From Planctomycetota bacterium (GTDB lineage Bacteria; Planctomycetota; UBA1135; GCA-002686595): DNA of 64,000 nucleotides. The notes beneath the pieces are model-generated. The model saw only the letters and a program-made list of their open reading frames with translations, was not told where the DNA came from and made no database searches. Positions 24,846 to 46,100 of the stretch are shown piece after piece. A program made the translations under genes and the position numbers. Each line of letters begins with the position of its first letter. The stretch's first letter is position 1. The DNA lies in NCBI GenBank assembly GCA_016779225.1, contig JADHNZ010000002.1, forward strand, positions 1 to 64,000, in the 5' to 3' direction.

Positions 24846-26258
<1,413 letters not shown>

Positions 26259-26304
26259 TGGAGGCTCCAGGGGTCTCGAGGTCGTTGGGTCCTGTGGTCT
26301 CGGC

Positions 26305-28017
26305 TCAGGTGCGCTCGATGGCGAACTCCGGCCTGTTCGGGGTGCCGTAGCAGACGAGCGCGCCGCGCTCGCCCACCGCGTTGGGGCGCTGGAAGATCCA
26401 GTTCTGCCAGGCGGACAGGCGCCCGAAGATCTTGGTCTCCATGGTCTCGGGTCCGGGGAAGCGGAGGTTGGACTCCATCCCCGTGAGCGCGTCCGGCGAG
26501 AAGCTCGCGCGCTCCTCGATGGCGAGGCGCAGCTCGTCCTCCCAGTCGATGTCGTCGGGGGCGACGGTCGCGAGACCCAGCTCGTCGGCCGTCTCCGCGT
26601 CGAAGCTCTCCTGGCCGGCGTGGGCCAGGACCGCATCGACCGCCTCGGGCGTGCCGAGGAAGCGCGTCTCCAGGCGGGTCAGCCCGTTCGACATCGGGAA
26701 GCCGCCGCGGTTGGCCTCCGTGACGCCGAGGTGCACCTCGATGTCCGGGTCGTTCAGCACGAAGGAGCGGTCCGCCGCCAGGAGGAGCTCGAGGGAGGTC
26801 CCGACGAAGGTCGTGCCCTCGTCGGCAACGGCGTAGAAGCTCTTCGAGGAGAGGTCGAGGCGCTTGAGGACGCGGCGCACCAGGCCCGCAGTCTCCTGCA
26901 CGAACCAGTGCTTCGCCCCAACGAGCAGGGCGTCGGTGGCGCGCACGGTCTCGGCACTCCCCTTGGCACGCAGCAGCACCAGGGCGATGTCGCGGAAGTT
27001 CATGCGCAGCTCGAGGATGGCCTGGTCGAGCTGGCGGTAGGCCTCGAGGACCCACCAGCCGGCTGCGGCCGCCACGGCCTCGTCCTCGGTGGTGGGGCAG
27101 GTCTCGGGGGCCTCGAGGGTGAGCTCGGCCGTGCGGGAGGCCTCGTCCAGGGTCAGGGTCACGAAGCCATAGCTCAGCGTGGTCCGTCCGGCGTCGTCGC
27201 TGGTCTCCTCCCAGGTCACGGCCGGCAGGGGCACGCCCGGGCCGGGCCGCTCGACGATCTCGGCCGCGAGCTCGGAGGCGTGGCGCGCGACGGCCTCATC
27301 CCACTTGGAGAGCGGAGCCAGGTCGTCCACCAGGTTCCACTCGACCGCGCGCTTGCCCTTGATGCCCTCGGCGACGGTGGAGAACACATCGCAGCGGTCG
27401 CGGCGCAGCTTGCGCTTGTCGGTGATGCGGGTCAGGCCGCCGGTCCCGGGCAGCACGCCCAGCAGCGGCACCTCGGGGAAGCTGACGGCGCTGTTGCGGT
27501 CGTCCACCAGCAAGATGCGGTCCGCGGCCAGGGCCAGCTCGTAGCCGCCGCCGGAGGCCGTGCCGTTGAGCGCTGCGAGGAACCGCAGGCGGTCCGAGGA
27601 GCTCGCGTCCTCGATCCCAAGGCGCGTCTCGTTGGTGTACTTGCAGAAGTTCACCTTGAAGGAGTGCGCGCTCGTGCGGAGCATCACGATGTTCGCCCCG
27701 GCGCAGAAGACGCGATCGAGGGCACCGGTCAGCACGACCGCTCGCACCTCCGGGTGCTCGAAGCGCAGGCGCTGGATCGCGTCCGCGAGCTCCACATCCA
27801 CCCCGAGGTCGTAGCTGTTGAGCTTGAGCTCGTACCCGCTGCGCAGCCCGCCATCGGGGTCCACGGCCATGGCCAGGGTGGCGATGTCGCCAGCGATCGA
27901 GAGCCGCCAGTGGCGGTACTGGTCGGGGTGGGTCTGGAACGACAGGCGCTCCGAGGCGAGGGCGGCAGGGGACACGGACGACTCCAGGGCTCGATGGGGG
28001 GGTGGGCAGTGAGCCAT
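26305..28017 (-). CDS. boxC: 2,3-epoxybenzoyl-CoA dihydrolase (benzoyl-CoA-dihydrodiol lyase) BoxC
   Basis: 570 aa. A crotonase-superfamily protein with two enoyl-CoA-hydratase-like halves. BoxC opens the epoxidised ring hydrolytically, releasing formate and giving 3,4-dehydroadipyl-CoA semialdehyde. Diagnostic segments are YELKLNSYDLGVDVELADA, VFCAGANIVML, VNFCKYTNETRLGIED, LNGTASGGGYELALA and FPEVPLLGVLPGTGGLTR in the first half, and WIFQRPNAVGERGALV near the C-terminus. ATG 28017 lies next to a perfect palindrome (28019-28040). GTG 27975 is an alternative start that would remove a poorly conserved N-terminal stretch. Transcription is divergent from boxR, whose product is expected to repress it until benzoyl-CoA is present. 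Confidence 0.93.
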   Translation of the reverse strand: MAHCPPPHRALESSVSPAALASERLSFQTHPDQYRHWRLSIAGDIATLAMAVDPDGGLRSGYELKLNSYDLGVDVELADAIQRLRFEHPEVRAVVLTGALDRVFCAGANIVMLRTSAHSFKVNFCKYTNETRLGIEDASSSDRLRFLAALNGTASGGGYELALAADRILLVDDRNSAVSFPEVPLLGVLPGTGGLTRITDKRKLRRDRCDVFSTVAEGIKGKRAVEWNLVDDLAPLSKWDEAVARHASELAAEIVERPGPGVPLPAVTWEETSDDAGRTTLSYGFVTLTLDEASRTAELTLEAPETCPTTEDEAVAAAAGWWVLEAYRQLDQAILELRMNFRDIALVLLRAKGSAETVRATDALLVGAKHWFVQETAGLVRRVLKRLDLSSKSFYAVADEGTTFVGTSLELLLAADRSFVLNDPDIEVHLGVTEANRGGFPMSNGLTRLETRFLGTPEAVDAVLAHAGQESFDAETADELGLATVAPDDIDWEDELRLAIEERASFSPDALTGMESNLRFPGPETMETKIFGRLSAWQNWIFQRPNAVGERGALVCYGTPNRPEFAIERT

Positions 28018-28018
28018 G

Positions 28019-28040
28019 GCCGGTCGCGGGGGCGACCGGC
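28019..28040. promoter_or_regulatory. Perfect 9-bp palindrome at the boxC start
   Basis: GCCGGTCGC (28019-28027) and GCGACCGGC (28032-28040) around GGGG. It lies in the expected boxC leader directly before the start codon at 28017, so it is either an operator half-site pair for BoxR or an RNA hairpin covering the ribosome-binding region. Confidence 0.5.
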
Positions 28041-28043
28041 ATG

Positions 28044-28063
28044 GTGGGAATTATCTTGCCCAC
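28044..28063. promoter_or_regulatory. GTGGG-N10-CCCAC inverted repeat over the boxC -10 box
   Basis: GTGGG at 28044-28048 and CCCAC at 28059-28063 flank the minus-strand -10-like box GATAAT (28055-28050). A repressor bound here would block boxC. A boxR -10-like TATAGA lies at 28083-28088. Confidence 0.45.
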
Positions 28064-28091
28064 TCCGGCTCGAGCATGGCAGTATAGATCC

Positions 28092-28841
28092 GTGGCGGAT
28101 CTCGATCAACCCCTCCTTCGGGCCCTTGGACGCCGGCTCGCGAGCCTCCGGGCCGGGAGGGGGATGTCCGCGTCCAGCCTGGCGGAGGCTGCCGGGGTGT
28201 CTCGACGCTATGTCACCGAGGCGGAGGGGGGCCGGGCCAACCTGTCCCTGGTCAAGCTCGCCAGCCTGGCGCGCGCCCTGCGCGTGCCCCTCAGGGAGCT
28301 CTGCGACCTGCCGCTCTCGCCGCCCGAGCGGGTGGCCCTGCTGGGGCTGCGGGGCGCAGGCAAGTCCTCGGTGGGGGCCGCCCTGGCCCAGGCCCTGGAG
28401 GTGCCCTTCGTCGAGCTGGACCGGCGGGTCGAGGCCCTCGCAGGGGCCCCCATGGCCACCCTGCTCGAGCTGGAGGGGGAGGCCACCTGGGCGCGCCTGG
28501 AGCTCCAGGCCCTCGAGGAGGTCCTCGCCTCCGGGCAGCGCCTCGTGATCGAGGTCCCGGGCTCGGTGGTGGCCCGGCCGGCCACCTTCGAGCGCGTCCT
28601 GGAGGCCTGCCGCACGGTCTGGCTGCAGGCCACCCCGGACGAGCACTGGGAGCGGGTCGTGGCCCAGGGGGACCTGCGGCCCATGGCCGGTCGGCCCGAG
28701 GCTCGCCGGGAGCTGGCCGCCCTGTGGGCCTCTCGGGAGCGGGCGTACCGCCGCTGCGACCGGCTCCAGCCCACCTCGGGGCGGACCGTCGAGCAGGTGG
28801 CGAGTGAGCTGCTCGAGAGCCTCCCCGGCGGCCGGCCCTGA
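28092..28841 (+). CDS. boxR: BoxR: XRE regulator fused to shikimate-kinase-like effector domain
   Basis: 249 aa. The N-terminal helix-turn-helix of the XRE/cI type spans residues ~10-66 (MSASSLAEAAGVSRRYVTEAEGG). The C-terminal shikimate-kinase-like domain starts at ~80, with a P-loop GLRGAGKS at 85-92, FVELDRRVEAL and the Arg-rich lid RPMAGRPEARRELAALWASR. This two-domain layout is specific to BoxR/BzdR, repressors of benzoate catabolism in Thauera/Azoarcus, where the kinase-like part senses benzoyl-CoA rather than phosphorylating shikimate. GTG 28092 is chosen because the protein then begins just before the HTH and follows a TATAGAT box; upstream in-frame ATGs run through the operator region. 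Divergent from boxC. Confidence 0.88.
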   Translation: MADLDQPLLRALGRRLASLRAGRGMSASSLAEAAGVSRRYVTEAEGGRANLSLVKLASLARALRVPLRELCDLPLSPPERVALLGLRGAGKSSVGAALAQALEVPFVELDRRVEALAGAPMATLLELEGEATWARLELQALEEVLASGQRLVIEVPGSVVARPATFERVLEACRTVWLQATPDEHWERVVAQGDLRPMAGRPEARRELAALWASRERAYRRCDRLQPTSGRTVEQVASELLESLPGGRP

Positions 28842-28996: not shown

Positions 28997-30040
28997 ATGC
29001 TCCTCCTCTCCTTCCTTGCCCTGGGCCTGGCGCCCGGCGGGCCGACCCCGCTCCCCGAGGTCGTCCTCCTCAAGGACCGTCCGTCCCGCGCCTTCGAGGT
29101 GGTCCTGCCCGCGGAACGCTGGTTCCCGGTGGGTGAGCTCTTCCCGATCGCGCACGCTGCCGGCGCGGGCTTCGCCGTCGCCCCCGAGGGCGAGGGCCTG
29201 CTCGTCGACGCGGACGGCGACGGCGCCCTGGAGCGCACGCTCGAGGGCGTGCTCGACGAGGGGACCGGCGTGCGCTCGGCCTTCGTCGTCCTCGAGGGTG
29301 AGCGCGCCGGCGGCGCGCCTCTGCGCTACGGCGTGCGCCTGCGCAACGAGGGCAAGGGCTGGGAGTGGGCGCCCTCGGGAACCGTCCGCGGCCAGCTCGG
29401 GGACCTGCGCATTCAGGTCATCGACCAGGACGGCGACGGGGTGTTCGGCGAGGTGGGCCAGGACGCGATCGTCCTGGGCAGCTCCGATCACGCCACCTTC
29501 CTCTCGAGCACGCTGAGCATCGGCGGAGCGGTGCAGACCCTCACCGTCGCGCCGGACGGCTCGAGCCTCGAGGTCTCCCCGTTCACGGGCCCCACGGGCT
29601 CCCTCGACCTCGCGAGCGAGTTCGACGGTGACGCCCGCATCCTCGCCGCCGTGGTCCGCAGCACGGACGGCCAGCACTCCTTCGACCTCGCCTGGGCCGA
29701 AGGCCCCCTGCAGGTCCCGGTTGGCCGCTACCGCCTGCACGGCGCGGTCATCGGCCTGGGCGATGCCCGGGTCGAGGTGGCAGAGGGTGCCATGCAGCCC
29801 CTCGTCGTGGCTGCCCAGGCCGAGACCGCCCTCGCGTGGGGCGGCCCGACGCGCGCCGAGTTCGCCTTCCAGCGCTCCGGTGACCAGGTGGCCTTCGACC
29901 CCGAGCAGGTGTGGTGGTACGGAGCCGCCGGCGAGGAGTACCGCGGCTGGGCGCCGCGTGGCAAGAGCCCCGAGTTCACGATCAAGGAGCGCAAGCTCGG
30001 GACGGAGCTGCTGAAGGCGCTCTTCCCGGGCAGCTGCTGA
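28997..30040 (+). CDS. Secreted protein of unknown function, probably read through an in-frame TGA
   Basis: 347 aa up to the TGA at 30038-30040. ATG 28997 gives a signal peptide (MLLLSFLALGLAPGG). The body is beta-rich with repeated Asp/Gly patterns such as VDADGDGALE and IDQDGDGVFGEVGQDAIVLG, resembling planctomycete extracellular proteins with EF-hand-like or thrombospondin-like Ca loops. No enzyme family is recognised. The frame does not end naturally: after Ser-Cys-TGA the same frame runs on for 39 sense codons with G or C at 38 third positions and protein-like content, to a second TGA at 30158. Selenocysteine insertion (Ser-Cys-Sec-Gly), a nonsense mutation or a base error would each explain this. 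It may be the first gene of the 28997-46913 unit. Confidence 0.65.
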   Translation: MLLLSFLALGLAPGGPTPLPEVVLLKDRPSRAFEVVLPAERWFPVGELFPIAHAAGAGFAVAPEGEGLLVDADGDGALERTLEGVLDEGTGVRSAFVVLEGERAGGAPLRYGVRLRNEGKGWEWAPSGTVRGQLGDLRIQVIDQDGDGVFGEVGQDAIVLGSSDHATFLSSTLSIGGAVQTLTVAPDGSSLEVSPFTGPTGSLDLASEFDGDARILAAVVRSTDGQHSFDLAWAEGPLQVPVGRYRLHGAVIGLGDARVEVAEGAMQPLVVAAQAETALAWGGPTRAEFAFQRSGDQVAFDPEQVWWYGAAGEEYRGWAPRGKSPEFTIKERKLGTELLKALFPGSC

Positions 30041-30160
30041 GGCCGAGGCTTCGTGCCGGTCGCCGTGAGCGTGCCGCAGAACCTCGAGATCGAGATCACC
30101 ATGGCCCACGACACCTGGGCCTTCGGCGTCATCCAGGGCAAGCCCCGCAGCACCCGCTGA
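30041..30160 (+). other. In-frame coding continuation after TGA 30038 (possible selenoprotein tail)
   Basis: Codons 30041-30157 read GRGFVPVAVSVPQNLEIEI and onward to IQGKPRSTR, then TGA 30158-30160. There is no ATG start of its own except an internal Met at 30101. The only third position not G or C is in CGA at 30044. GGTC occurs 18-21 bases after the TGA, close to the position of the GGUC loop in the E. coli fdhF SECIS, but I cannot draw a convincing stem around it. Confidence 0.5.
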
Positions 30161-30237: not shown

Positions 30238-32535
30238 GTGTCCCGCCTCCTGCTTCTTCTGGCAGCCCTGCTCCTCTGCGCGCCTGCGCTGCGCGCCCAG
30301 GAGCCCGTGCGTGGCCGGGTCCCGGTGACCCTCGTGGACGGGCGCCTCGTGGTGTCCTGCGACCTCTCGACGCCGTTCCGCCGCATCCCGGCCAACCTGC
30401 TCGTCGAGTTCGAGCAGCCCCACGGCCTGATCCTCCACAACCGGGCGGCCGCCCCCCTGCGCTGCGAGAACCCCGACGGCACGACGATCCCGATCCGGAT
30501 CCACCTGCCGGAGTTCGACCTCGAGGTGCCTCGCCGCGAGCTTGGCGACGAGGAGTTCATGGAGGACTTCACCAAGTACCACTCCGAGGAGCTGGGGGAG
30601 AACGCCCTGGTCGGGAGCATCGGCTACGAGGTGCTGCGCGAGCACGCGATCCGGTTCGACCTGGCACAGGGGCTGCTCGAGTTCCGCCCGCTTGGGCCGG
30701 AGCCCGCGGGGCCGGTGCTGCCGGCGGAGAACCCGGACGGCTCGTGGACCGTGCCCCTCGATGAGCACGCCGGGCTGCTGTGGGTGACGGTCGTCGCAGA
30801 GGACGGGACGCCCTTCGCCATGGCGGTGGGCTGCAGCCGGGCCGACACCCTGGTGGACGCGCGCACCTGCGAGCGCCGCCGGCGACCGGCGGGGGACCTC
30901 GGGGTCCTGCGCCTGGGCGGCGTGGACCTCGCGGAGTTCGTGGCGCCGCGGCCCGAGCCCCTGGCCCTTGTCCACCCCGACACGCCCCTCGGCGTGCTCG
31001 GCGTCAACCTCTTGCGGCACCTGTCGGTGGATGTGGATCGCGGGGCGCGCCGCGCGGTGATCCGCGTCACCCGCCCCCCCGTCTTCCCCGAGGCGGACCT
31101 CGACTTCTTCCGCACGCGCCTCACCGAGGACGGCGATGAGCTCGAGGCTCACCTGGAGCGCCATCCCGAGGCGCGCCTGGCGCGCGAGGCCGCCGAGCTC
31201 CTGCTGACCTGGCGCTTCGACGAGGCCGCGGCCGAGGAGGACACCGTCCGCGCGGTGGACTGGATTGCGCGCACCACCCCGGAGGACCTGCGAACCACGC
31301 GGATGCTGGACCTGATGAAGGTCCTCTCCGACGACGCGCGCTCGGCCGAGCTCCTCGCGGCAGGCCAGCTCGGGATCGCCTCCGGACGCGAGGACCGCTA
31401 TCCGAACGCCGTGCACGAGGTCCACGGCCGCATGGGCCGCGAGCGGCTCGCACGCGACGAGGGCCGCGAGGCCTGGCGCCACCTGCTGAGCGCCTCGTTC
31501 GGGCTGCCGGGGAACGGCCCCATCAACCTGGACCTGGGGCGCTACTACGAGAGCCAGGGCCGCTATCGGCGCGCCTTCTCGCGCTTCGTCCAGGCGGTCC
31601 TCGATCCCGAGAGCGGCCCGGCCGCCCTCGAGGCCATGGCGCGCGTGCAGCCGCTGCTCGACCCGGACGAGCCCTTCGGCGTCGAGCTGATCGAGCGCAT
31701 GATCGCGGGCAAGGTGCGCAGCTTCGGCGCGCCCAACCGCTGGCAGCCCGACCCTGACGCGCCGCCGAGCCGCACCGTGCTGGTCGAGTTCTTCACCAAC
31801 GCCTGGCTGGGGGACGACACGCGGGGCGCGATCGGCGGGGCCCTCGGATTCGAGGGCGCGGCCTCCTACTTCGAGGGGGGGCCAGTGGTCTTCCTCTCAC
31901 ACCACCTCCCCGACCCGCGCGTGGATCCCCTGTGCACCTCCCTCGCGGCGCGGCGCGCGGCGCGCCACGGCGTGGGGCAGCCGGCGGTCCAGGTCGTGGA
32001 CGGCGTCCGGCAGGCCCCTGGCGCCGGGCGCTGGCGCGATGCGGAGGCCATCTCCCAGCGCGTTCGCAGCGCGGTAGAGGGACGCCTCGGCCAGCCCACC
32101 GACTGGGAGCTGGGGCTCGAGGGCGAGGTGGATGGAGACACCCTGCGCGGCGCCCTGGACGCCCTGGGCCCGACCGAGGCCGGCCGTCGGCTGGTCGTGG
32201 TCCTGACCGAGCGCGGCGTCCTGTTCCCCGGCAAGACCGGGGTGGTCGTGCACCGCCACCTTGCGCGCGCGGAGCTGACCGAGACCGGGGGCGCGGCCTG
32301 GGATCCCCTCGACGGCTACCAGCGAGTCGAGTTCGAGGTCTCCCTGTCCCAGGTGACCGCAGAGCTCGAGGCGCACCTCGACGAGCTGGCCCGCACCGGG
32401 GTCGGCACGACCGTCCGGGTCTCCACCGGGCTCGACCCCGCGCAGCTCGGCCTCGCCGCCTGGGTGGAGGACGCGGCGACCGGCGAGGTCGTGCAGGCGA
32501 CCCAGCTCTTCCTCGGACCGGAGCGGGAGCGATGA
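30238..32535 (+). CDS. Secreted protein: degenerate retropepsin-like domain, helical repeats, DUF1223-like thioredoxin fold
   Basis: 765 aa from GTG 30238, with signal peptide VSRLLLLLAALLLCAPALRAQ. Residues ~25-150 and ~160-285 each resemble a retropepsin-like aspartic protease lobe (VGSIGYEVLREHAIRFDL and LGVLGVNLLRHLSVDVD mirror the usual GxLGxxxLxxxxvxiDy), but the catalytic D-T/S-G is missing in both. A helical, TPR-like middle follows. Residues ~510-600 resemble DUF1223 thioredoxin-like proteins (VLVEFFTNAW...HHLPDPRVDPLCTSLAARRAARHG...VQVVDG), but the CxxC is replaced. Both halves therefore look like binding rather than catalytic modules. The stop overlaps the next gene by ATGA, placing it with the MoxR/Bat genes. 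Function unknown. Confidence 0.6.
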   Translation: MSRLLLLLAALLLCAPALRAQEPVRGRVPVTLVDGRLVVSCDLSTPFRRIPANLLVEFEQPHGLILHNRAAAPLRCENPDGTTIPIRIHLPEFDLEVPRRELGDEEFMEDFTKYHSEELGENALVGSIGYEVLREHAIRFDLAQGLLEFRPLGPEPAGPVLPAENPDGSWTVPLDEHAGLLWVTVVAEDGTPFAMAVGCSRADTLVDARTCERRRRPAGDLGVLRLGGVDLAEFVAPRPEPLALVHPDTPLGVLGVNLLRHLSVDVDRGARRAVIRVTRPPVFPEADLDFFRTRLTEDGDELEAHLERHPEARLAREAAELLLTWRFDEAAAEEDTVRAVDWIARTTPEDLRTTRMLDLMKVLSDDARSAELLAAGQLGIASGREDRYPNAVHEVHGRMGRERLARDEGREAWRHLLSASFGLPGNGPINLDLGRYYESQGRYRRAFSRFVQAVLDPESGPAALEAMARVQPLLDPDEPFGVELIERMIAGKVRSFGAPNRWQPDPDAPPSRTVLVEFFTNAWLGDDTRGAIGGALGFEGAASYFEGGPVVFLSHHLPDPRVDPLCTSLAARRAARHGVGQPAVQVVDGVRQAPGAGRWRDAEAISQRVRSAVEGRLGQPTDWELGLEGEVDGDTLRGALDALGPTEAGRRLVVVLTERGVLFPGKTGVVVHRHLARAELTETGGAAWDPLDGYQRVEFEVSLSQVTAELEAHLDELARTGVGTTVRVSTGLDPAQLGLAAWVEDAATGEVVQATQLFLGPERER

Positions 32536-34012
32536 GCGGCTCGCTGGGCGACCTGCGGGGCCAGCTCCAGGACCTGGCGGCCCATGTGGCCCGCGGCCTG
32601 CGCCGCGCCCGCGCACGCGCGGCGGCCATCAACGGGCTCGAGCGCGCCGCGCGGCACCTGTGGGTGCTCCCTCTGCTGGGGCTGGGGTGCGCGCTGGTCG
32701 GCCTGCCGGCAGCTCCTGGCCTCCTGCTCCTCGCGGGGCTGGGAGCGCTCGTCCTGGCGGCGGGCGTCCCCGCCTGGCGCGCGGGCGCGCGGGCCGTGCC
32801 GCAGCAGGAGGCCCTCGCCGTGGTCGACGAGCGCCTCGCGCTCAGCGGCCGCCTGCAGGTCGCGGGGGAGTTCCTGGACCGCGCCCGGCGCACGCCCTTC
32901 ATCGTGGCGGCGCTTGAGGACGCGGCGACCTGGGTCCGCGGGGCCCGCGGCGTGGACCTGGTCCATCCCGTGCCCGTCCTGCGCCGTGGGTGGCTCGGCC
33001 GTCGCCTGAGCGGAGCGCTGGCTCTCTACCTCGCCCTGGCCCTGGTCGCGCCGGGCCCGTTCCGCCGCGGTGCCGAGGACCTGCTGGACGAGGTGCAGGC
33101 GGTGGCCGGCCCGCTGCTCGACGCGGTCCGCGAGCAGGTTGCGGTCCTGGATCGCGACCCCATCGCGGTGCCCGAGCCGAAGGCTCCCGAGACGCGGGCC
33201 GCCGAGGCGGCCGGAGCCTCCGAGCTCACCGAGGACCCGCGCGGGGACCTCTCCGAGCGCGAGAAGGACAGCCAGGGCAGCACCGGCCAGGGACGCTCTG
33301 CCGAGGCGAACTCGACCTCCAGCGACTCGAGTGCGCGCGGCGCGCCCTCCGATCAGGCGCAGCCCTCCCAGGAGCCCGAGAAGCGGCCCAAGCCCGGCAA
33401 GAAGCCGGTGGCCAAGCCGCGCAAGCAGGAGCCCAAGCCGCGCTCCAAGGAGCCGGAGCCCTCGGCCACGACCACGGGGTCGGGCTCGTCCAAGGGCTCG
33501 GGACGCAACCCCACGGCGTCGGAGTGGTCGAGCCCCGAGCAGGCTCCGGCCCCGGACGACGCCGAGATCGACCAGGACGAGGAGGTCGACGACGACGAGG
33601 AGGAGCAGGAGTCCCGCGGAGGCGTGCAGCCCTCCCTCCGCGACCGCCGCCCCCCCGTGAGCCGCGACCTGCGCATTGGCTTCGGCAACCGGCCCAACCC
33701 TGACGCCAACGGACGCGGGGGACCCTCCGAGCAGAAGAAGTCCCGCGGCGTGGCGAGTCTCGTGCTTGGCGTGCCGATCCCCGACCGCGTGAAGGGGCGC
33801 CCCGGCCCGGGCCGCACGAAGGTCACCCAGGAGCGCGTGCTCCCCAAGGCCGAGGACGCGCCGCAGCGCCCCGCCCAGCCCGTCACGCCCCGCGCCCAGC
33901 AGGAGGGCCGCCTGCCCGAGCTCGACCTCGAGCCCTGGGTGCGCGGCATGGTGCGCGACTACTTCCAACGCCTGCGCCAGGGCGCAGGCGGAGACGATCC
34001 CAGGACGAACCC

Positions 34013-34016
<4 letters not shown>
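32532..34016 (+). CDS. Membrane protein with long low-complexity region, part of MoxR/Bat operon
   Basis: 494 aa. A basic amphipathic N-terminus (RGLRRARARAAAING) precedes two hydrophobic segments (residues ~38-80) and a third near 160-178. A long disordered stretch (~215-400) is first Ser/Glu/Gln-rich, then Lys/Pro (KPGKKPVAKPRKQEPKPRSK), then strongly acidic (DDAEIDQDEEVDDDEEEQES). The C-terminal ~35 residues are folded-looking (LEPWVRGMVRDYFQRLRQG) and probably form a conserved contact. Proteins of similar build (DUF4175-like) precede MoxR in planctomycete Bat-type operons. Both ends overlap neighbours by ATGA. Confidence 0.55.
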
Positions 34017-35029
<1,013 letters not shown>

Positions 35030-35037
35030 GTCCTCCC

Positions 35038-35961
35038 ATGCCCGCGCTCGCCCGCACGGATCTCGTCGATCCCGCCCTCTTCGAGGCGGCACGGCGCCTG
35101 CACCTCGAGGTGCAGCGCGTGGCGCCCCGTGGGCGGTTCGCCGACCACCGCTCGCGGGATCGGGGGACGGGCATCGAGTTCGAGGACCACCGGCCCTACA
35201 CCCCGGGCGACGACCTCCGCGCGGTGGACTGGAACCTGGAGCGCCGCAGCGGGCGGCTGTTCGTGCGGCTCTTCGAGCAGCAGGAGGATGTCCCGCTGTA
35301 TCTCCTGCCCGACATCTCGGGCAGCGCGTTCCTCGAGTCGCCTCCGCGAGCTCTCGCGGGTCTGCGCACGACGGTCCTGCTCGCAGCCGCCGCGCTGTTC
35401 CAGCACGACACGGTCGGCGTCTTTCCCTTCGCCGAGGACCTGCAGCTCCTGGCGCGTCCGGCGGCCGGACGGAACCTGGCTGTGACCCTCGCCGAGCGCC
35501 TCGCGACCCTCGAGCCGGGCGGGGAGACGAATCTCTCGCGGGCCCTGGAGCGGCTCGCGTCCATGCGCCTGCGCCAGGGCATCGTCGCGGTGGTCAGCGA
35601 CCTCTTCGACCCGGCGGGCATCGAGGCGGTCACGCGCGCCCTGGGCCGCCTGCGGCACAGGCTCCTGCTCGTGCAGCTGACGCGGGCGAGCGACGCCGAG
35701 CCGGGCCTCGCCGGAGACCTGCGGCTGGTGGACTGCGAGAGCGGGCGGGCCGAGGACATCTCGATCACTCCGGCGGTGCGCGCGCGCTACCGCGAGGCCT
35801 ACGCGGCCTGGGAGGGTGAGCTGAGCGCCTTCTGCCGGCGCCGCGGCGTCGCACGCATCCAGGTCGACTGCGACGGGGATGCGGTGGCTCAGGTGGCCGC
35901 AGCCCTGCGCGGCGGCGCTGCCAGCCCCGCGCCGACCGCGCGCGAGGAGGCCCCGGCATGA
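35038..35961 (+). CDS. DUF58 protein (VWA-like) of MoxR/Bat operon
   Basis: 307 aa. The DUF58 hallmark is seen at ~30-80: GIEFEDHRPYTPGDDLRAVDWNLERRSGRLFVRLFEQQED. A VWA-like fold follows, with LLPDISGSAFLE in the place of the MIDAS DxSxS (first Asp and Ser kept) and IVAVVSDLFDP. DUF58 proteins form a standard gene neighbour of MoxR and are thought to be clients of the ATPase. It is soluble in this case, with no membrane segment. It overlaps the next gene by ATGA. Confidence 0.9.
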   Translation: MPALARTDLVDPALFEAARRLHLEVQRVAPRGRFADHRSRDRGTGIEFEDHRPYTPGDDLRAVDWNLERRSGRLFVRLFEQQEDVPLYLLPDISGSAFLESPPRALAGLRTTVLLAAAALFQHDTVGVFPFAEDLQLLARPAAGRNLAVTLAERLATLEPGGETNLSRALERLASMRLRQGIVAVVSDLFDPAGIEAVTRALGRLRHRLLLVQLTRASDAEPGLAGDLRLVDCESGRAEDISITPAVRARYREAYAAWEGELSAFCRRRGVARIQVDCDGDAVAQVAAALRGGAASPAPTAREEAPA

Positions 35962-37625
35962 GCCTCAGCCACCTGTCCCCCCTGGCGTTCGCGGCCGGGC
36001 TCGCCGCCCTGGCTGGCGGGCTCTACCTGCTGCAGCGGCTGCGCGTCAGGCATGCGCGGGTGGAGGTGGTCACGACCCTGTTCTGGAAGCAGGTGCTCGA
36101 GGACACCCACGCGCGGGAGCTCACCCAGCGCTTCCGCCACTGGCCGGCGTGGCTGCTGCTCGTGGCCCTGGCCTCTGCCCTCTGGAGCGGCGTCGCTGGC
36201 CTCGAGGGGCGCGCGGAGACCGAGCGCCGGACCCTGCTGCTGTTGGACCAGTCCTCGCTCGCCGCCGTGGGCGATCGCTGGGACGGCTGGACCCGGCTGC
36301 TGCAGGACCTGCACGAGCGCTGCGACCCCGACGAGACGACGGTCCTCGCCTGTGGTTCCAGTGCCCGGACCCTGGCTGCGCCCGGGGAGGCCAGCACGGT
36401 CCTGCGGGAGCGCCTCGTGGACCTCGAGCCGGAGCTCACCTCCCCGACGGTCGAGGCCACCCTGCTGGGCCTGCTGCGGACCAAGCACGACCTGCTGCCG
36501 TGGGAGGTCGTCCTGGTGGGCGAGGCGCCCCTCGACGCGGGCGTCGTGGCCGCGCTGCCCGAGGAGGTGCGCCTCTCGCGCGCGACCCTGCCCACCGCCT
36601 CGGCCCTCGCCGAGGAGGGGCTGCTCGCGGTCGGCGCGGGCCATGGCGCCGGGTGGAGCGAGGCGTCGGTGCTCGTGCGCGCGCGGGCCGTGACCGTTGC
36701 CCCTGAGCTGCAGCTTGACGGGCGTCCCTGGGGCACCGCCGGCGAGCGCGATGGAGACACCTGGCGCTTCACGGGGCTGCCGGCGGAGGGCGGGCTGCTC
36801 GAGGTGCGGCTCCCCGGCGCGCGCCCGCCCCACGACCGGGCGCGCCTCGTGCTTCCCCTGCGCACGCCGGTGCGGCTCGCTCTGGACCCTGCGCTCGAGC
36901 CCCTGTTCGGTGCGGTCCTCGCCGCCCACCCCGGCCTCCGGCAGGTGAGCGCCGCCGAAGCGGAGGTGGTGCTGCGCTCCGCGGGGAGCACTCTGGGCGC
37001 GGACCTGCCTGCGCTCGAGGTGGCGACCGCCGCCGCGGGCGGCGCAGCGGTGGAGCTCGTGGAGCCGGGCGCGAGCGGCGCCGGGAGCGCGGACCTCGCG
37101 GAGCTCCTCGTGGCCACCGGCCTCGACCGCCTTGCGGGCAGCGAGCTCGCGACCCAGGTGGGGCGCACGCTGGAGGCCACGCTGCAGCCCGGCCCCGTCC
37201 GCACGGTGCGGCTCTGGGAGGAGCTGATCGCCCCGGAGGACGAGGGGCTGCGCGCGAGCAGGGCCTTCCCGCTGCTGGTCGGACGAGCCCTGGAGTGGCT
37301 GCGCGGAGCGCCCGCCCTCATCCCCGAGCTGCGCGCGGGCTCGAGCCTGGCCGCGGCCTTCGCCCCGGAGGCCCACCGCGCCGTCGCTCCCTCCGCCCGC
37401 CTCGCGCTGCCCGCGGCGGGCAGCGCCTCGTCCCTGGCGGGCGACCTGGTCGTGAGCGCCTTCCTCCCCGAGGACCTCGCACAGGGCGGCGCCGAGGTCG
37501 CGGCCCTGCCCGCACCAGACCTCGACGGCGAGGCCGCCTGGGGCCTGGGCACCTGGGTGCTGCTCCTGGCGCTCGCTCTGCTCCTGTTCGAGGAGCGCCT
37601 CCTGCGCCTGGGCCGCATGCCCTGA
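35958..37625 (+). CDS. BatA-like membrane protein with N-terminal BatA domain
   Basis: 555 aa. The N-terminal BatA domain comprises two membrane segments (residues ~8-27 and ~62-80) with the cytoplasmic loop LRVRHARVEVVTTLFWKQVL between them. A large extracytoplasmic region follows, with a VWA-like beta/alpha layout but no full MIDAS motif (LLLLDQSSLAAVG stands at the first strand), and a final hydrophobic segment near 525-545. Homologues in planctomycetes belong to the aerotolerance (Bat) type operon. ATGA overlap with DUF58. It lies 40 bases upstream of the VWA gene. Role: probably the membrane scaffold of the complex. Confidence 0.8.
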   Translation: MSLSHLSPLAFAAGLAALAGGLYLLQRLRVRHARVEVVTTLFWKQVLEDTHARELTQRFRHWPAWLLLVALASALWSGVAGLEGRAETERRTLLLLDQSSLAAVGDRWDGWTRLLQDLHERCDPDETTVLACGSSARTLAAPGEASTVLRERLVDLEPELTSPTVEATLLGLLRTKHDLLPWEVVLVGEAPLDAGVVAALPEEVRLSRATLPTASALAEEGLLAVGAGHGAGWSEASVLVRARAVTVAPELQLDGRPWGTAGERDGDTWRFTGLPAEGGLLEVRLPGARPPHDRARLVLPLRTPVRLALDPALEPLFGAVLAAHPGLRQVSAAEAEVVLRSAGSTLGADLPALEVATAAAGGAAVELVEPGASGAGSADLAELLVATGLDRLAGSELATQVGRTLEATLQPGPVRTVRLWEELIAPEDEGLRASRAFPLLVGRALEWLRGAPALIPELRAGSSLAAAFAPEAHRAVAPSARLALPAAGSASSLAGDLVVSAFLPEDLAQGGAEVAALPAPDLDGEAAWGLGTWVLLLALALLLFEERLLRLGRMP

Positions 37626-37665
37626 GCGCGGGCTCCGTCCTTCACCCGTCAAAGAGCCCTCCTCC

Positions 37666-40116
37666 ATGGTCCTCCTCGCTCCCTCCCTGCTGCTGCTCCT
37701 GCCGCTGGCCCTCGTGGTCCTGCGGCGCGGAGGGCAGTGGGACCTGCGCGGCCCCGGGGCCGTGCGGGCCGCTGCGGTCGCCGCGCTGGTGCTTGCCCTC
37801 GCGCGGCCGGTGGTGCCCGGGGACGAGGAGCGCAGCCACCAGGTGCTCGTGGTGGACCACCGCTCGGGAGCGGAGGCTGCGAGCGCGGCCACGGCGCGCC
37901 TGGAGGGGCTGGAGCGCACCGACCGGGTGGTGCTCGTCGAGATCGGCGGTCCCCTGCCGGACCAGGCCCTCGCGGGGCGCAGCGCCGAGCGCGTGCCTGC
38001 GGCCAGCCTGGCGGACGCCCTGCTTGCCGCGACGGCCGCGATCCCGGCGGGCGCGCGCGGGGCGGTCACCCTGGTCAGTGACGGAGGGGACGAGAGCCTC
38101 GCGACCCTGGCTCCCCTGCAGGACCTGATCGAGCGCGGCCTGCCCCTGCACGCCGTTGCGCTGCCCGCGGCGGACGACGCAGCGCGGCCCGTGGTCCTCG
38201 ATGCACCCGAGGGCCTCCGCGCGGGGGCGACCGGCGTGGTGCGCGTGGTGCTCTCCGGCCTCGGGGAAGAGGTGCGCGTGACCCTGTCTGGCGACGGCGA
38301 GGAGTGGGGGAGCCGCGTGCTGGCGGCCGTCGATGGGCGCACCGAGCTGCGCTTCGCCGTCGAGCCTCCCAAGGAGGGCTTCGTGGAGGCGCGCGTGCGC
38401 GTGGAGGAGTCCTCAGGTGGCCCCGCTCGCGAGCGCAGCGCCACGCTCGCCGTGCAGGCGCCCACGCGCGTGCTCGCCCTCACCGCGCGAGTGGTCGGCT
38501 CGGGTGAGCGGCTGGCGGAGCTTGCGGGGCCGGGCTTCCAGGTGGACGAGCGCGGGGCGGATGACGGTGCCGACGGCCTGCCCGAGCCGGGGGACTACGA
38601 CCTCGTGGTGGTGGATGACCGCCCGGCCTCGCTGCTCCCGGCAGCCTTCCAGGCCCGGCTGGTCTCCGCAGTTCAGGGCGGCGGCGTGGGCCTGCTCGCC
38701 AGCGGAGGCGAGGCGGCCTTTGGTCCTGGGGGCTGGCACGACACGCCCCTGGCCTCGGTCCTGCCGGTGGACGCGGTGCAGAAGGAGGAGAAGCGGGATC
38801 CCTCCGTGGCCCTCGTGATCATCATCGACACCTCCGGCTCGATGGGCGGCAACCGCGTCCAGCTGGCCAAGGAGGTGTCGCGCCTCGCGCTCAAGCGCCT
38901 GCTGCCCCACGACAAGGCGGGCATCGTGGAGTTCTACGGCGCCAAGCGCTGGGCGGCGCCGCTGCAGCCGGCCTCCAACCACATCGAGCTCGAGCGTGCG
39001 CTCAACCGCATGCAGGCCGGCGGCGGCACCGTGATCCTGCCGGCCATCGAGGAGGCCTGGTACGGGCTCAAGAATGTGAATGTGCGCTACAAGCATGTGC
39101 TCGTGCTCACCGACGGTGGCGTCGAGTCCGGGGCCTTCGAGCCCCTGCTGCGCGCCATGGCGGACGACGGCATCACGGTGTCCACCGTGCTGATTGGCGG
39201 CGACGCCCACTCGGAGTTCCTCGTCAACCTGGCCAACTGGGGCAAGGGGCGCTTCTACGGCGTGCCGAACCGCTTCAACCTGCCGGAGATCCTGCTCAAG
39301 CAGCCCGCGAGCGCGAAGCTGCCCGCGTGGCGGCCCGTGCCGACCGCGCTGGAGGCCGGCGGCGGCCCGACCTGGTGGGGCGAGGTCGATCCCTCCAGCG
39401 TGCCCTCGCTCGCCGGCCATGTGGAGACTCGCCTGCGCCCCGGCGCCGAGGAGGTGCTCTCCACGGCCGGAGGCACGCGCCCGGTGCTCGCGTCCTGGCG
39501 CCACGGCCTGGGGCGCGTGACGGCCTTCACCAGCGAGCTCACCGGACCCGGCGCCGGGGACTGGGCGGACTGGGACGAGCGCGGCGCGTTCCTCGCGCGG
39601 GTGCTGCGGCGCACGGCGAAGGACCTCGGGGGCGCGTTCCGCTTCACGGCCCGGCGTGAGGGAGCACGGCTGGTGGTCGAGGCTGCTCGCCGTGAGGAGG
39701 GCACCGTCCAGCCTCGGGTGCTCCTGGGCGACGAGGAGCTGCGCCTGAGTGAGCGCGCTCCCGGCTGGTTCGTGGCCGAGCGCTGGCTGCGCGGAGACGA
39801 GGTGGAGCGCGACGCGCGGCTCGTGGCGGGCACCGGGCCCGAGCTGCGGGACCTGGTCTTGCTCGTGGGGAGCGCCCTGCGGCCCCGCGCCGTTGCGGAT
39901 CCTGCGCGTGCGCTCGATCCCGCCGCCGCGGCTCGCTGGGTGGGGGGCGTGCAGCTCCGCGCAGAGGCCACGCCGACGCCCGCGGGCGGACCCGAGCGGG
40001 CTCCGGGGACGGACGACCTGCGGCCCCTGCTCGCCCTCCTCGCCCTCGCCCTGCACCTGACCTCCGTCTATCTCCGCCGTCGTCCGCTCGAAGCCCCTGC
40101 CGGAGCCGCCGCGTGA
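37666..40116 (+). CDS. Membrane VWA protein with glutamine-amidotransferase-like domain
   Basis: 816 aa. Two N-terminal membrane segments (residues ~2-18 and ~30-46) and one near the C-terminus (~785-800). The extracytoplasmic part contains a degenerate VWA-like region (~55-165), a class I glutamine-amidotransferase-like domain (~260-365, marked by DYDLVVVDDRPASLLP and GLLASGGEAAFGPGGWHDTPL) and a complete VWA domain (~385-560). The second VWA has an intact MIDAS: VIIIDTSGSMGGNR, GGTVILPAIEEA and VLTDGG. This layout is known in planctomycete and myxobacterial Bat-like operons. The intact MIDAS suggests metal-dependent protein binding, possibly remodelled by MoxR. It ends in a GTGA overlap with the giant TPR gene. 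Confidence 0.85.
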   Translation: MVLLAPSLLLLLPLALVVLRRGGQWDLRGPGAVRAAAVAALVLALARPVVPGDEERSHQVLVVDHRSGAEAASAATARLEGLERTDRVVLVEIGGPLPDQALAGRSAERVPAASLADALLAATAAIPAGARGAVTLVSDGGDESLATLAPLQDLIERGLPLHAVALPAADDAARPVVLDAPEGLRAGATGVVRVVLSGLGEEVRVTLSGDGEEWGSRVLAAVDGRTELRFAVEPPKEGFVEARVRVEESSGGPARERSATLAVQAPTRVLALTARVVGSGERLAELAGPGFQVDERGADDGADGLPEPGDYDLVVVDDRPASLLPAAFQARLVSAVQGGGVGLLASGGEAAFGPGGWHDTPLASVLPVDAVQKEEKRDPSVALVIIIDTSGSMGGNRVQLAKEVSRLALKRLLPHDKAGIVEFYGAKRWAAPLQPASNHIELERALNRMQAGGGTVILPAIEEAWYGLKNVNVRYKHVLVLTDGGVESGAFEPLLRAMADDGITVSTVLIGGDAHSEFLVNLANWGKGRFYGVPNRFNLPEILLKQPASAKLPAWRPVPTALEAGGGPTWWGEVDPSSVPSLAGHVETRLRPGAEEVLSTAGGTRPVLASWRHGLGRVTAFTSELTGPGAGDWADWDERGAFLARVLRRTAKDLGGAFRFTARREGARLVVEAARREEGTVQPRVLLGDEELRLSERAPGWFVAERWLRGDEVERDARLVAGTGPELRDLVLLVGSALRPRAVADPARALDPAAAARWVGGVQLRAEATPTPAGGPERAPGTDDLRPLLALLALALHLTSVYLRRRPLEAPAGAAA

Positions 40117-43100
40117 TCCTCCCCGTCCTCCTCCTCGCCGTGGTCGCCCCCTGGACGACCTCTCCGGTGGCCCAGGCTCCCGAGGACCTCGAGGCCGCCC
40201 TGCGCGCGCCCGGCAGCGAGACGGCTGCCGCGCTCTACCGCGCCTGCGTGGCGGAGCACGGCGCGCTTGCACCCCTTGAGGAGCGGCTCCTCGCCCTTGG
40301 GGAGGACGCGTCCCTGCCCCCGGACCGGCGGGCCGCCGCGTGGACCCTCCTGGGGCACGCTCGCTGGCGCCTCGGTGCGCTCAGGGGCGCGCGCGAGGCG
40401 CTCGAGCGCGCGGTCGAGGTGGACCCTGCCCTTCGCGCGGGGCGCGTGGGCCTCGCCCGCCTGCTCGACGCGGTCGGGGACCTGGAGCCTGCGCGCGAGG
40501 CCTATGCCCTTGCCCTGGAGGGGCTCGACGACCCGGCACTCGAGCTCGAGCTGCGCATCGCGCAGGCCCTGCTCGCCATGGACGCGGGCGAGGAGGAGGA
40601 CCGCGACGCGCTGCGGACCTTCGCCACGGACCTGGCGGCCGAGGACCGCAACCGCGCGGCGGTGGTGCTGTCGCTGCTCGACCGCCCGGCGGACGCGCTG
40701 GTCCTCTTCGAGGTGCGCGAGGATCCCAAGCTGCGGGCTCGGGACCTGCTGCGCGTCGCGGGCTGGCACCTGCGAGCAGGGGACCCGGCGGCCGCGGCCG
40801 AGGCGGCCTGGCAGTCCTCGCTGTGCGCGACCCTGGGCCGAGAGCGGCGCCAGGCCCTGGCCCTCTGCATGGAGGGGCACATCGCCGCCGAGTCTCTCGA
40901 CGCGATGCTGGAGCGGTTCGTTGGCCTGGCCGAGCCCTCCGCGGAGCATCAGGAGGCCTGGAACGAGGTGCTGCGCCAGACCGCCCGCTACGACGAGGCC
41001 ATCGCCCGCTTCGAGGGGGCGGCTGGGGACAGCATCCAGCCGGAGGCGCGGCTCGAGCTGCTCGAGATGTACCGCGAAGCGGGGCGGCGGGAGGCCATGC
41101 TCGCGGCCTATGGCGACCTGATTGCCGCGGAGCCTGCGCGCGTGCTGTGGCGCAGCGGTCTCACGCGGGTCCTGCTCGAGGAGGGGGACCGAGATGGCGC
41201 CCTTGGGGCCTGGGCGGGCTTCGAGGAGGCTGCCTCTCCCGCGGAGCTGCTGGAGGGCGCGCGCGCCCTGGCACGGGTGGGGCTGCGCGAGCGCGCCCAG
41301 GCCTGGGGTCGGGCGTGCGAGGCGAGCGAGGAGACGCAGGTCCCGGCGCAGCTGTTCCTGTTCGCCATGGAGCGCGACGCGGGGCGCGTCCCCGAGGCGC
41401 TCGAGGTGCTGCGGCGCATGGAGGCCGAGACGGATCCGGGCTCGCCGGCCCGGCTCGAGCTCTCCGAGGCCTTCGAGCAGGTCGGCGCCCTCGAGGACGC
41501 CGTGCGCGTGCTCGAGTCGGTCAAGCGCACGCGGCCGGATGGGGAGGCAGGCGAGGACCTCGAGATGCGCCTCGCGTGGCTCTACAGCGAGATCGGCCGG
41601 GAGGAGGAGGCACAGGTCGCCTGGCGTGACCTGTGGCGCCGGGTGCAGGCCCTTCCGCGCCGGCGCTATGTGGAGGACCGGCTCATGACGGTGTCCTCGC
41701 GGCTGGGGACGCTGGCGGACCTGGCGATCGAGCTGGAGGAGGCCGTCCTCGCCGGGGAGGCGGACGAGAAGCAGAGCGCGCTGCTGGTGCGCCTCTACAC
41801 CAAGGTGGGGGACTCGGTCTCCGCCACCGAGATCGTCGATGAGTTCTTCCGCCATGCGGGTCGCGGCGAGCGCGAGTCCCTCGAGGAGAAGGCGCGGATC
41901 TACCTCGCGACCAACGACTACTTCGCCTACGAGGAGTCTGTCCAGCGCCTCATCGAGCTCGATCCCGAGGGTGAGGCGGAGTACCTGCGCCAGCTCGCCA
42001 TGAGCATGATGGAGCGCGGCAAGCCCGAGCAGGCGCGCGCCGTGCTCTCGCGCCTAGGTGAGCTCGAGGCCGACACGGTCGCTGCCGAGTTTGAGGCGGG
42101 CGTGCTGGCCCTGGCGGGCATGCGCGACGAGGCCCTCGAGGTGTACCGTCGCGGCGTCGCAGCCCATCCTGGCCGGATCGACACCTACCTGCTGATGGGC
42201 GACCTGCTCAAGCAGACGGGCCAGCAGGGGCTGGCCCTGGGGATGTTCCAGTGCCTTGCGGCCCACGCGGATCGTGACGACCTCTTCACCGTCGCGATTG
42301 ACGGGATCCTGAACCAGTTCGCCGACGGCGGCACGCGGCCCGAGACGATTGCCTGGGCTCGCCGCACGACCCTCGCACGGCTGGCCCTGCGGCACGACAA
42401 GACCTACCTGTACCAGCTGCTCGCGGACCTCTACGAGGAGGAGCAGGACCGCCGCGGAATGATCCGCGTGCACGAGACCTCCCTGCCGATCACTGGCCCG
42501 CGCGTGGCGTCCGTGCTGCGTGAGCTCATGGACCTGTCACGCGGCGAGGGAGACAGCTTCCGCGGCAGCGGCTGGCAGGGAGACCCGCAGCTCTTCCTGA
42601 CCTTCGGCAGGAGGCTCGTGGCGAGCGGCGAGCTGGTGCCGCCGCAGGTCTACCTGGATCTCGGCGAGGCCTTCCTCGACGCGGGGGACGCGGACGCGGC
42701 GCGGCGCACCTTCGCGCTCACGCGCGACATGCCCGATCACGAGCGCTTCCAGCGGGACGCGGCGCGGCTGTTCGAGGCTGCGCAGGAGACGCGGCTTGCG
42801 CTGGATGCGTACCGCGCCCTGCTGGCCACGGCGCCCACGGACGAGGGGCTGCTGGTCAAGGTGGGGGAGCTCCAGGAGGCCCTTGGTGCCGACGCCGAGG
42901 CCGCCGACCTGTACGGCCGCGCCCTCGAGCTGCTCCTCTCACGGCGCCCGCTGTCGATCACGCGGCGCGCCGACGAGGACGAGGCCGACAACCCGTTCCT
43001 GTGGTGGGGCGCCCGCAACACCGACGACTGGGATCGCTGGAGCGCTCGCACGCTGGAGGGCCTGCTCGCCTCGTGCTCGGCCGCGGAGCTCGAGGAGCGC

Positions 43101-46100
43101 GCCGCGGGGCACGCGCGGTTGCTGGCGGCCGAGCTCGAGCAGGTCCTGGCCGAGCGAGCCGCGCGGCCTGTCGTGGAAGGGGAGGCGCCTGCGCCGGACC
43201 GGCTCCAGGAGCACCCGCGCCTCGTGCGCCGCGGCGAGGTCGTGCGCCGCCTCGCCTTCGCCAGCCAGCGCGTCGAGCGCGCCCTGGAGGTCGATCAGCG
43301 CCTCGCGACTGCGTTCGCGGAGGACGACGACTCCGTCGAGGAGGTCCTGCGCGCCTGGATGGCGGCTGGCTACCGGGCTGCCGCCGACGGGCTGCTGCGG
43401 GACCTTGCCCTGACCGACCCCGTGCGCCTGGCGCGCCTGGGCTCTGCCGTCGGCCGCGGGGGCTTCGTCGCCGGCCAGGGCCTTGGCATCGAGGAGGCCC
43501 TGCGCTCGATCCTGCCCCTGGTGTCCGCTGGCGACGCCGACGGGGTCCGCGAGCTCCTCCTGCGCGTCGAGTACGGCACCGGAGCCGCCGAGGACCTGCC
43601 GCGCCTGGGGACGCTGTTCGGCGCGGCGCGCTGGCTGGGCGATCAGGACGCGGCGCTGCGGGTGGGGCGCCAGTGGCTGCGCCTCGCCATGGATGAGGGC
43701 CGCGGGAGCTACGAGGCCGAGGCCGCTCTTGACGCGATCACCGAGGGCCTCGACGGAGAGCGTGCGCGTGCCTTGAACCAGTACCTGGTGGGGCGGGTCC
43801 TCGAGGACCCCGCCACGCGCGCCGACTACGCCACCGTGATCGCGGGCATCCAGCGACGCACGGGGGAGCGGTTCGTGGAGGAGGAGCAGGCGCTCGAGCT
43901 GCTGGAGCGCTCCGGCCGCTTCTACGCGCTGCCAACCATCCTCGAGCTCCTGCCACTCGAGGCGCGGGCCGCGGCGCTGCGCAGCACCTGGCCGCGGGTG
44001 CCCGCCAACATGCGCGCGAACACCCTCCTCCAGTGCCTGCAGGAGAGCCAGGACGAGCTGCCGCAGGAGTTCGTGGCGGCGCTCGTGGACCTCGCCCCGG
44101 ACGCGTACCGCGAGGCCCCCGAGTACATCCAGTGGTTGCTCGGGAACCTGTCCGACCTGAGCGTCAACCTCGGAGCCGGCGTCGCCCTGCTCGACGCGTG
44201 GCTGGAGCTGCATCCCGGTCAGCCGCTGCCGCGGGGCGCGCGAGCCGTGCTGCTCGATCGCTTGGGCCGTACGGGGGAGGCGCTGGCCGTGGTCTTCGAG
44301 CTGCTGCCCTCGCTGCCCTCCCGGCCGGACGGGGGCAACTGGGAGGAGATGCGCGTGCGCACCACCCTGCTCGAGCGCTTCGCGCCCCGTCATGCGGATG
44401 CCCTCACGCCCGTCCTCGAACAGCTGGCTCCCCGCGCGGCCTTCGACCTCGAGCTGGAGCTGATCGCCGGCCGGGCCGGAGTTCGGACCTGGGAGGACCA
44501 TCCGGCGCTGCGCGAGGCCTGGGCGTCCGTTCCCGAGCGCTTTCCTGACGACGAGGTGCTGCTCGAGGAGAGCCTCGGCCGGAGCCGCACCGTGCGCGGC
44601 TTCGTGGCCGCGACTCGCCGGCTCCTGGAGCTGCGCTCCGATCCCGGCGAGCGCGAGGCCCTGCTGCGGCGCCTCGAGTCGCGGCTGCGGGTTGCGGGCT
44701 TCGAGGCCGAGGCGCTCGAGGCGCGGCTGGAGCGCATGGGCGCGGAGGGGGGAGCGGCCTCACCCGCTGCGGATGGCGCCATGGGTGCCCTGCTCGCACC
44801 GACCTCGGTGGCAGCCGTCGTCGTGGGCGGTGCTTCCGGCGCCTCTTCAGGCGGTGCCGTGATCGTGGCGGGCGTTGCGGCGCCGGCCATGCCGGCCATG
44901 TCCGTCATGCCGGCGATTGCCCTGACCCCGGCCTCGGGGGCCGCCGTCTCCCTCTCCGTCGCAGGGTCCTCGCTCGAGCTGGACGAGCTGGAGCTGTCCT
45001 CGGATCCCGGGGCCGTGGCGGATGCCGTGCGGGCCGGGGATGTGTCCGGGGCCGCGCGGGTCCTGCGCCGTCACTGGCGCGAGTTCCAGGTCGGCATCGA
45101 GCCGGACTCTCCCTACCCGATCTTTGGCTGGGGCTCTTCCCCGCTCGGTCGGTTCCGCTGGATGGGCGAGGTGCCCTCGCTGGCGGCTTCGGGCTCCGAG
45201 GGGGAGCCGGTGGAGGGCCCCACGGAGGAGTCCTCTCCGGGCGCGTCGGAGGGCGCCCCCCCGCGTACCGACGCGCCGGAGGAGGGCCTCGCTGAGAGTG
45301 TTGAGGCCGCCCCGCCGTCCGACGACGATGCGCCGGCCACGCCCGTGCCCGCCGGCGGCCTCTCCACCTGGCAGGACAGCGTGGAGCGCGTCGCTCAGGA
45401 GCGCCCGGAGGCGCTCGAGATCCTGGCCCGGTATCCCGAGCTGCGCAGCGAGCTCGAGCGCAGCCTGCAGGTGCGCGAGACGCGCGCCCTGGATGCCGAG
45501 CAGCCCGTGATCGAGGCCCTGGCGCAGGCGGACGCGGCGGCGCGCGGCGTCGAGCGCGCGACGCAGGAGCGCATCGCGGCCCTCGAGGGCGGCACCCTGG
45601 GCAAGCGGGGGCAGATGGAGCTGCTCGCGCTCCTCGACGAGACCCCTGATGCGGGGGGCGCTGAGCAGGTGGTGCGTTCGCTGGTGGGGGCGGTGAGTCC
45701 CCTCGATGCGGAGCAGGCACGCCGGCTGGCGCGGGTGCTTGCGCGCGCCGGAGCCCAGGACGAGGCCATCCGGCTCTACCGCTGGTGCGCGACCACTGCC
45801 GGCGGGGGTGCGGCGCGGATGTCGTTCAGCCCCTTCGGGGATCAGGGGACCACGGTGACCGTTGCCGAGCTCGTGCAGGAGGCGAAGGAGGTCATTGATC
45901 CCGACCGGCGCCTGGGGCTCGTGGAGTCGATCCTCAGCCTGTCGGTCGCCCCCCGCTATCCGTGGGCTCGCGAGCAGGCGGAGCTCGAGCAGCTGCGCGT
46001 GTGGGAGGAGCTCGTGGGGCCGGCCGAGGCCTTCGCGCGAGCGCGCGCCGTCTGCGAGGCCAGCATCGACCTGAGCACCGGCCTGCGCCGCCGCGTGGCC

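Follow-up and report, generated by a model that had tools for sequence, protein, structure and literature searches.

A planctomycete gene with an in-frame UGA almost certainly read as selenocysteine represents a candidate new family of probably exported proteins

Reactive Cys pairs carried on a beta-sandwich are known from periplasmic Ig-like redox domains, among them the N-terminal domain of DsbD, and CsgC. Adjacent Cys-Sec (CU) motifs are found in several members of a 2026 catalogue of 119 prokaryotic selenoprotein families, which holds no Sec-Sec (UU) motif (PMC13188914). By the published constraints, a bacterial SECIS element has a loop of 3-9 nt on a stem of 4-16 bp, with a G in the first two loop positions, a spacing of 16-37 nt and a folding energy of -7.5 kcal/mol or lower (PMC13188914, section 5). 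An earlier study described selenoproteins in two planctomycetes that came from a cultured red alga (PMC4807772). Bat genes of the MoxR-DUF58-VWA type were proposed to supply periplasmic reducing power in Bacteroides fragilis; in Leptospira biflexa, Bat proteins had no protective role against oxidative stress (PMC3557215). In this current study, we examined a 64,000-nucleotide stretch of DNA from a member of the Planctomycetota (hereafter the window), in which the gene heading a Bat-like cluster is interrupted by TGA. Comparative sequence analysis makes it highly probable, taken as a whole, that this gene belongs to a new, phylum-wide family with selenocysteine (Sec) at residue 348. The product is probably exported, Sec is likely to act in a redox pair, and service to the Bat-like complex is a more tentative suggestion.

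Decoding of the in-frame TGA

The gene occupies positions 28997 to 30160 of the forward strand, its start codon having been set by alignment with homologues. The open reading frame from 28997 to 30037 meets TGA at 30038-30040 and then continues for 39 sense codons to the terminal TGA at 30158-30160; read through, it specifies 387 amino acids with Sec at residue 348. The residue context is S-C-U-G, in which the codon at 30035-30037 encodes Cys347, the sole Cys of the predicted protein, and 38 of the 39 tail codons carry G or C in the third position. Re-reading of the frame thus reproduced the reading frame, TGA, tail and motif given in a preliminary description of the locus. Because the G+C content of the window is 73.2%, simple base composition would leave 39 or more codons open with a probability of about 0.52, and the open tail is therefore weak evidence by itself. 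It is the comparative evidence, from homologues and from an RNA hairpin, that places the in-frame TGA and its tail far beyond chance.

The same in-frame TGA was found, together with a conserved tail and the hairpin, in 111 related genes from 93 genomes of one phylum. Within the window's class, 77 of 83 members (the 77 being distributed over 61 genomes) have TGA at the codon for Sec348, two of them one codon earlier (UC pairs). When residues at positions -1 and 0 were tabulated for the 83 members, CU was found in 51, UU in 12, SU in 8, CC in 5, TU in 3, UC in 2, GU in 1 and SC in 1. The members without TGA thus comprise five with Cys-Cys and one with Ser-Cys, and the second position is Sec or Cys in all 83. 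The aligned Sec column was invariably U or C over 33 sequences. The tail beyond TGA was conserved in nearly all homologues, with relatives in many genera. Outside the class, 34 TGA genes were collected from 32 further genomes belonging to other classes of the same phylum; these were chosen largely for having TGA, so that this sample is no measure of Sec frequency. A protein search of plasmids and an exact-pattern search of viral contigs yielded no match to the family. A separate family of about 700 aa (680-750 aa), which gives matches around E 1e-20 to 1e-30 across the majority of the genomes and almost always lacks TGA, was left out of the member counts; one example (G000:C72:45121-45996, L085) has part of the beta domains in common and no TGA at the place of the motif.

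The machinery for Sec insertion is present in the source genome, whose assembly is 77% complete in 99 contigs. As the preliminary description had proposed to check, all four genes were found: selA (381 bits), selB (365 bits, with its C-terminal part), the tRNA-Sec gene selC (72.8 bits; anticodon TCA by ARAGORN) and selD (340 bits), the last with an in-frame TGA of its own (G000:C76:4503-5450, L048). Moreover, one contig holds selA, selC and selD inside a 9-kb stretch. Among related genomes, SelA was detected in 144 of the 154 of the class. Of 30 carriers tested, 24 have tRNA-Sec, and none of the nine high-quality ones lacks it. In two distant genomes, G447:C104 and G213:C3, the tRNA-Sec gene was located about 2 kb and about 8 kb, respectively, from a family member. 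It was also observed that the source genome encodes 11 copies of the PSD1 domain, compared with none in 14 control genomes, a pattern consistent with Planctomycetota.

A bacterial SECIS-type hairpin was identified inside the coding sequence at 30057-30076 on the forward strand, starting about 17 nt past the TGA. Its arms, CGGUCGC and GCG-U-GCCG, enclose an apical loop CGUGA at 30064-30068 (+24 to +28), with a bulged U at 30072. A GGTC that the preliminary description had put near a SECIS loop does lie 18-21 nt past the TGA, but it belongs to the 5' arm of the hairpin; as a loop it is ruled out, given that it pairs within the stem. With its 7-bp stem, its loop sequence and its loop at +24, the hairpin falls within the published limits on loop, stem, G position and spacing; the folding energy is -10.3 kcal/mol for +10 to +42 (with flanks) and -7.0 kcal/mol for the bare 20-nt hairpin, relative to the limit of -7.5. 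Some members come short of that limit (e.g., L177 at -6.7 and L064 at -6.6 kcal/mol), and no Rfam model recognised the hairpin.

The hairpin was found to covary among homologues. CG followed by U or G occupies the loop place, at +24 or +21, in all 77 class Sec genes, and in the 34 TGA genes sampled from other classes a hairpin was present without exception, its loop starting between +21 and +34. When elements were grouped as unbulged or bulged by better fit, which favours pairing somewhat, 97.6% of cells paired in the unbulged set (14 distinct elements) and 87.5% in the bulged set (23 distinct elements), and in neither set did any of 500 shuffles score as high. In the unbulged set, both sides change in five of the six pairs. 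The covariation score for this set was 0.766, compared with 0.232 for shuffled elements and at most 0.14 when slid. The TGA is followed by a SECIS-type stem with compensatory changes; the preliminary description had folded no clear stem. Compared with synonymous-codon shuffles, the folding energy gave a mean z of -1.22 for the Sec genes and -0.17 for six Cys-only genes; gene by gene, significance in this comparison was modest (21% at p ≤ 0.05). L181 (G323:C885) has Cys in place of Sec and an intact hairpin, which is what a recent change from Sec to Cys would leave.

These data bear on two other accounts of the TGA. It might have arisen recently by nonsense mutation or be an error of the assembly, as the preliminary description had considered, with the tail a decaying remnant; an open tail is, after all, common by chance in DNA so rich in G+C. 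Recurrence of the same TGA and tail in so many separately assembled genomes excludes both versions, and the tail differs from that of the closest relative by 11 synonymous and 5 nonsynonymous codons, which leaves this account a negligible probability. Alternatively, the TGA might be a true stop ending a 347-aa protein, be read as Trp, or leak by ordinary read-through, and TGA does serve as terminator of 28997-30160 itself and of other genes in the window. Such accounts are very improbable: Trp was never found at the site among members with a readable motif, and within the class no residue but Cys stands in for Sec; the hairpin past the TGA covaries, and the genome has the full set of four Sec genes; and genes with two TGA codons would require two successive leaks. 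On this sequence evidence, which upholds the selenoprotein reading of the preliminary description in homologues, machinery and hairpin alike, the in-frame TGA of 28997-30160 is almost certainly read as Sec. Gene callers will usually terminate such proteins at UGA and drop their reactive site, and a redox protein that is common across a large but little-studied phylum has thus probably been overlooked.

A movable partner residue and adjacent UGA codons

A Cys or Sec partner was found no more than three residues from Sec in 74 of the 77 class Sec genes, arranged as CU (51), UU (12), CxxU (7), UC (2) or UxC (2). The CxxU and UxC cases are members with Ser or Thr at -1; three Sec members (L057, L060 and L163) lack any such partner over that distance. 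The sisters L173 (GGCUGGGF) and L174 (CGTUGGGF) differ in that Cys has shifted between -1 and -3. On a quick tree of 109 members, which has several long branches, CxxU accounted for three changes (at least three origins) and UU for four, at least three of them forced by strongly supported branches, while exchange between Sec and Cys accounted for only two. From these sequences, we infer that the moves of the partner reflect selection for a redox partner near Sec. Pairs such as L173 and L174 offer a ready experiment on why selenocysteine needs a neighbour.

Twelve members from 11 genomes (L061, L066, L077, L119, L120, L121, L125, L134, L157, L159, L162 and L167) contain two adjacent in-frame TGA codons, followed by a conserved tail and one hairpin. 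Two paralogues from the window's own genus, L075 and L076, fall within a UU clade and have the reversed order Sec-Cys. It is likely that a single hairpin directs the decoding of both neighbouring UGA codons as vicinal Sec-Sec, and that this arrangement has three or more origins, probably in Cys-Sec ancestors. If so, Sec-Sec would constitute a natural vicinal selenol/diselenide site, and the family would provide a natural swap series (CU, UU, UC, CxxU, UxC and CC) in one fold. The Sec-Sec genes also raise the directly testable question of how a single hairpin can act on two UGA codons in a row.

Predicted structure, gene neighbourhood and possible role

The AlphaFold2 model of the whole protein is all-beta (pLDDT 92.2), and a pLDDT of 92.2 was likewise obtained for the C-terminal domain alone, an Ig/FNIII-like beta domain encoded at 29780-30157 on the forward strand. 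When the whole model and this domain were compared with solved structures by Foldseek, no match was found at E ≤ 0.001 (best E about 0.02); the weak, non-significant matches were to Ig/FNIII domains, SoxYZ, CopC, superoxide reductase and CsgC. In the model, Cys347-Sec348 most likely sits in a loop of the Ig-like domain of an all-beta selenoprotein. Since Cys347 is the sole Cys, a vicinal selenenylsulfide is the only intramolecular bond possible to Sec. The N-terminus is hydrophobic and, judged by eye, a probable signal peptide, through which the product is probably exported.

Downstream of the selenoprotein gene, all on the forward strand, lie genes for a 765-aa protein without Pfam or NCBIfam match (30238-32535), which has a homologue in the corresponding position in about half of the compared loci; a predicted membrane protein of 494 aa that overlaps the preceding gene (32532-34016); a MoxR-type AAA+ ATPase (34013-35029; AAA_3, 8.9e-62); a DUF58 protein (35038-35961; 9e-35); a membrane protein in the BatA-type gene position and without Pfam match (35958-37625); and a protein with a von Willebrand A domain (37666-40116; 2.3e-13). 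The MoxR, DUF58 and VWA genes together at 34013-40116 characterise a Bat operon, to which the selenoprotein gene is an added first gene. In other genera, the order of the cluster is kept around orthologues of the window gene; the paralogue clades do not share it. The end of the VWA gene is overlapped by a gene at 40113-46913 for a 2266-aa protein, TPR-rich in appearance, which probably belongs to the same cluster. Upstream, at 24849-28841, are the aerobic benzoyl-CoA genes boxB (3.7e-230) and boxC (7e-230) and a gene for a BoxR-like regulator with a shikimate-kinase-type domain; homologues of boxB and boxC are kept upstream in the window's close relatives.

A mechanism can be proposed on this basis. 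SelB and Sec-tRNA, held by the mRNA hairpin just past UGA, would insert Sec at residue 348, and translation would proceed beyond UGA to 387 aa. The product would be exported by its N-terminal signal and fold as an all-beta protein, whose Ig-like C-terminal domain would display Cys347-Sec348 in a loop. The pair might then alternate between a reduced form and a selenenylsulfide, and might act as a periplasmic reductase or redox switch for the downstream-encoded Bat-like MoxR-VWA complex. In relatives, the same chemistry would be carried out by a partner in another position, giving Sec-Sec, Sec-Cys, Cys-x-x-Sec or Sec-x-Cys.

If Sec is inserted, two other uses of the site can be considered. The site might bind a soft metal (e.g., Cu, Hg or Cd) or trap selenium or sulfur species, a SoxY-like carrier being one version. 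Soft metals could be bound at vicinal CU, UU and CC sites; to judge by their names, several known families with a CU motif act on mercury or bind metal (PMC13188914, Table 1); and SoxY, SoxZ and CopC appear among the weak fold matches. However, these matches were not significant (E 0.08-0.2, TM about 0.35), metal-transport genes were not prominent in the neighbourhoods compared, and the shifts of the partner to CxxU and UxC produce typical redox spacings; we consider metal binding or trapping unlikely. Somewhat less doubtful is a peroxidase-like enzyme in which Sec acts as catalytic nucleophile and the adjacent Cys or Sec only resolves it, which would suit the near universality of Sec at the second position beside a variable first position, and the three members with Sec but no close partner. 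No peroxidase fold or motif was found, however, by Pfam, NCBIfam or fold searches, and this account lies so near to a redox pair that sequence does not tell the two apart. We favour the redox pair as the likely function of Cys347-Sec348; that the selenoprotein has a specific role for the Bat-like complex is a more tentative suggestion. The role of Bat-type systems is unsettled, and the conserved position of the selenoprotein gene as first in a MoxR-DUF58-VWA cluster offers a concrete redox lead to it.

Comparison with known systems

Scanning of 33 members against NCBIfam release 20.0 matched no family, Pfam gave nothing convincing (two single-member hits near 0.01), and no PHROGs family was matched. 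No entry of the 119-family catalogue was recognised as this family, those with only CDD or PANTHER models having been compared by name and motif. By these comparisons, it is a new selenoprotein family of a known kind; a member might have been sighted before among the planctomycete selenoproteins of PMC4807772. It has the adjacent Cys-Sec of other bacterial selenoproteins with CU motifs (MerB-like SaoL, SaoC, HgcA, MbdU, KCU-star and CopZ-like form 2; PMC13188914, Table 1), but differs from them in matching no NCBIfam model and none convincingly in Pfam.

The preliminary description had likened the site to the Gly-Cys-Sec-Gly end of animal thioredoxin reductase. The likeness holds for the chemistry to be expected, as both have adjacent Cys-Sec before Gly and a vicinal selenenylsulfide would be possible in each. 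It does not extend to sequence, fold or position: here the site is internal, within an Ig-like beta domain of a probably exported protein and 39 residues short of the C-terminus, with no convincing sequence match and no Pfam match to the flavin or NADPH domains of thioredoxin reductase. Similarly, the N-terminal domain of DsbD and CsgC resemble the predicted protein in carrying a reactive pair on a beta-sandwich, and CsgC is among the weak fold matches; they differ in spacing, sequence and size, and that match is not significant. As for the sulfur carrier SoxY, Pfam detected no SoxY domain, the motif is internal rather than on a C-terminal GGCGG arm, and the fold match was not significant.

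The window gene heads a cluster like the Bat (MoxR-DUF58-VWA) operon, of which a selenoprotein is no described component in PMC3557215. With respect to decoding, the family differs from known SelB-dependent selenoproteins in sharing no domain with any family model searched, and its hairpin differs from the known elements in the loop (C-G followed by U or G) and in an often bulged U on the 3' side. It nevertheless follows the pattern of E. coli FdhF, with its SelB-dependent SECIS inside the coding sequence: at a spacing of 16-37 nt past the UGA comes a hairpin that has G in the first two positions of its loop, and SelA, SelB, SelC and SelD are all present.
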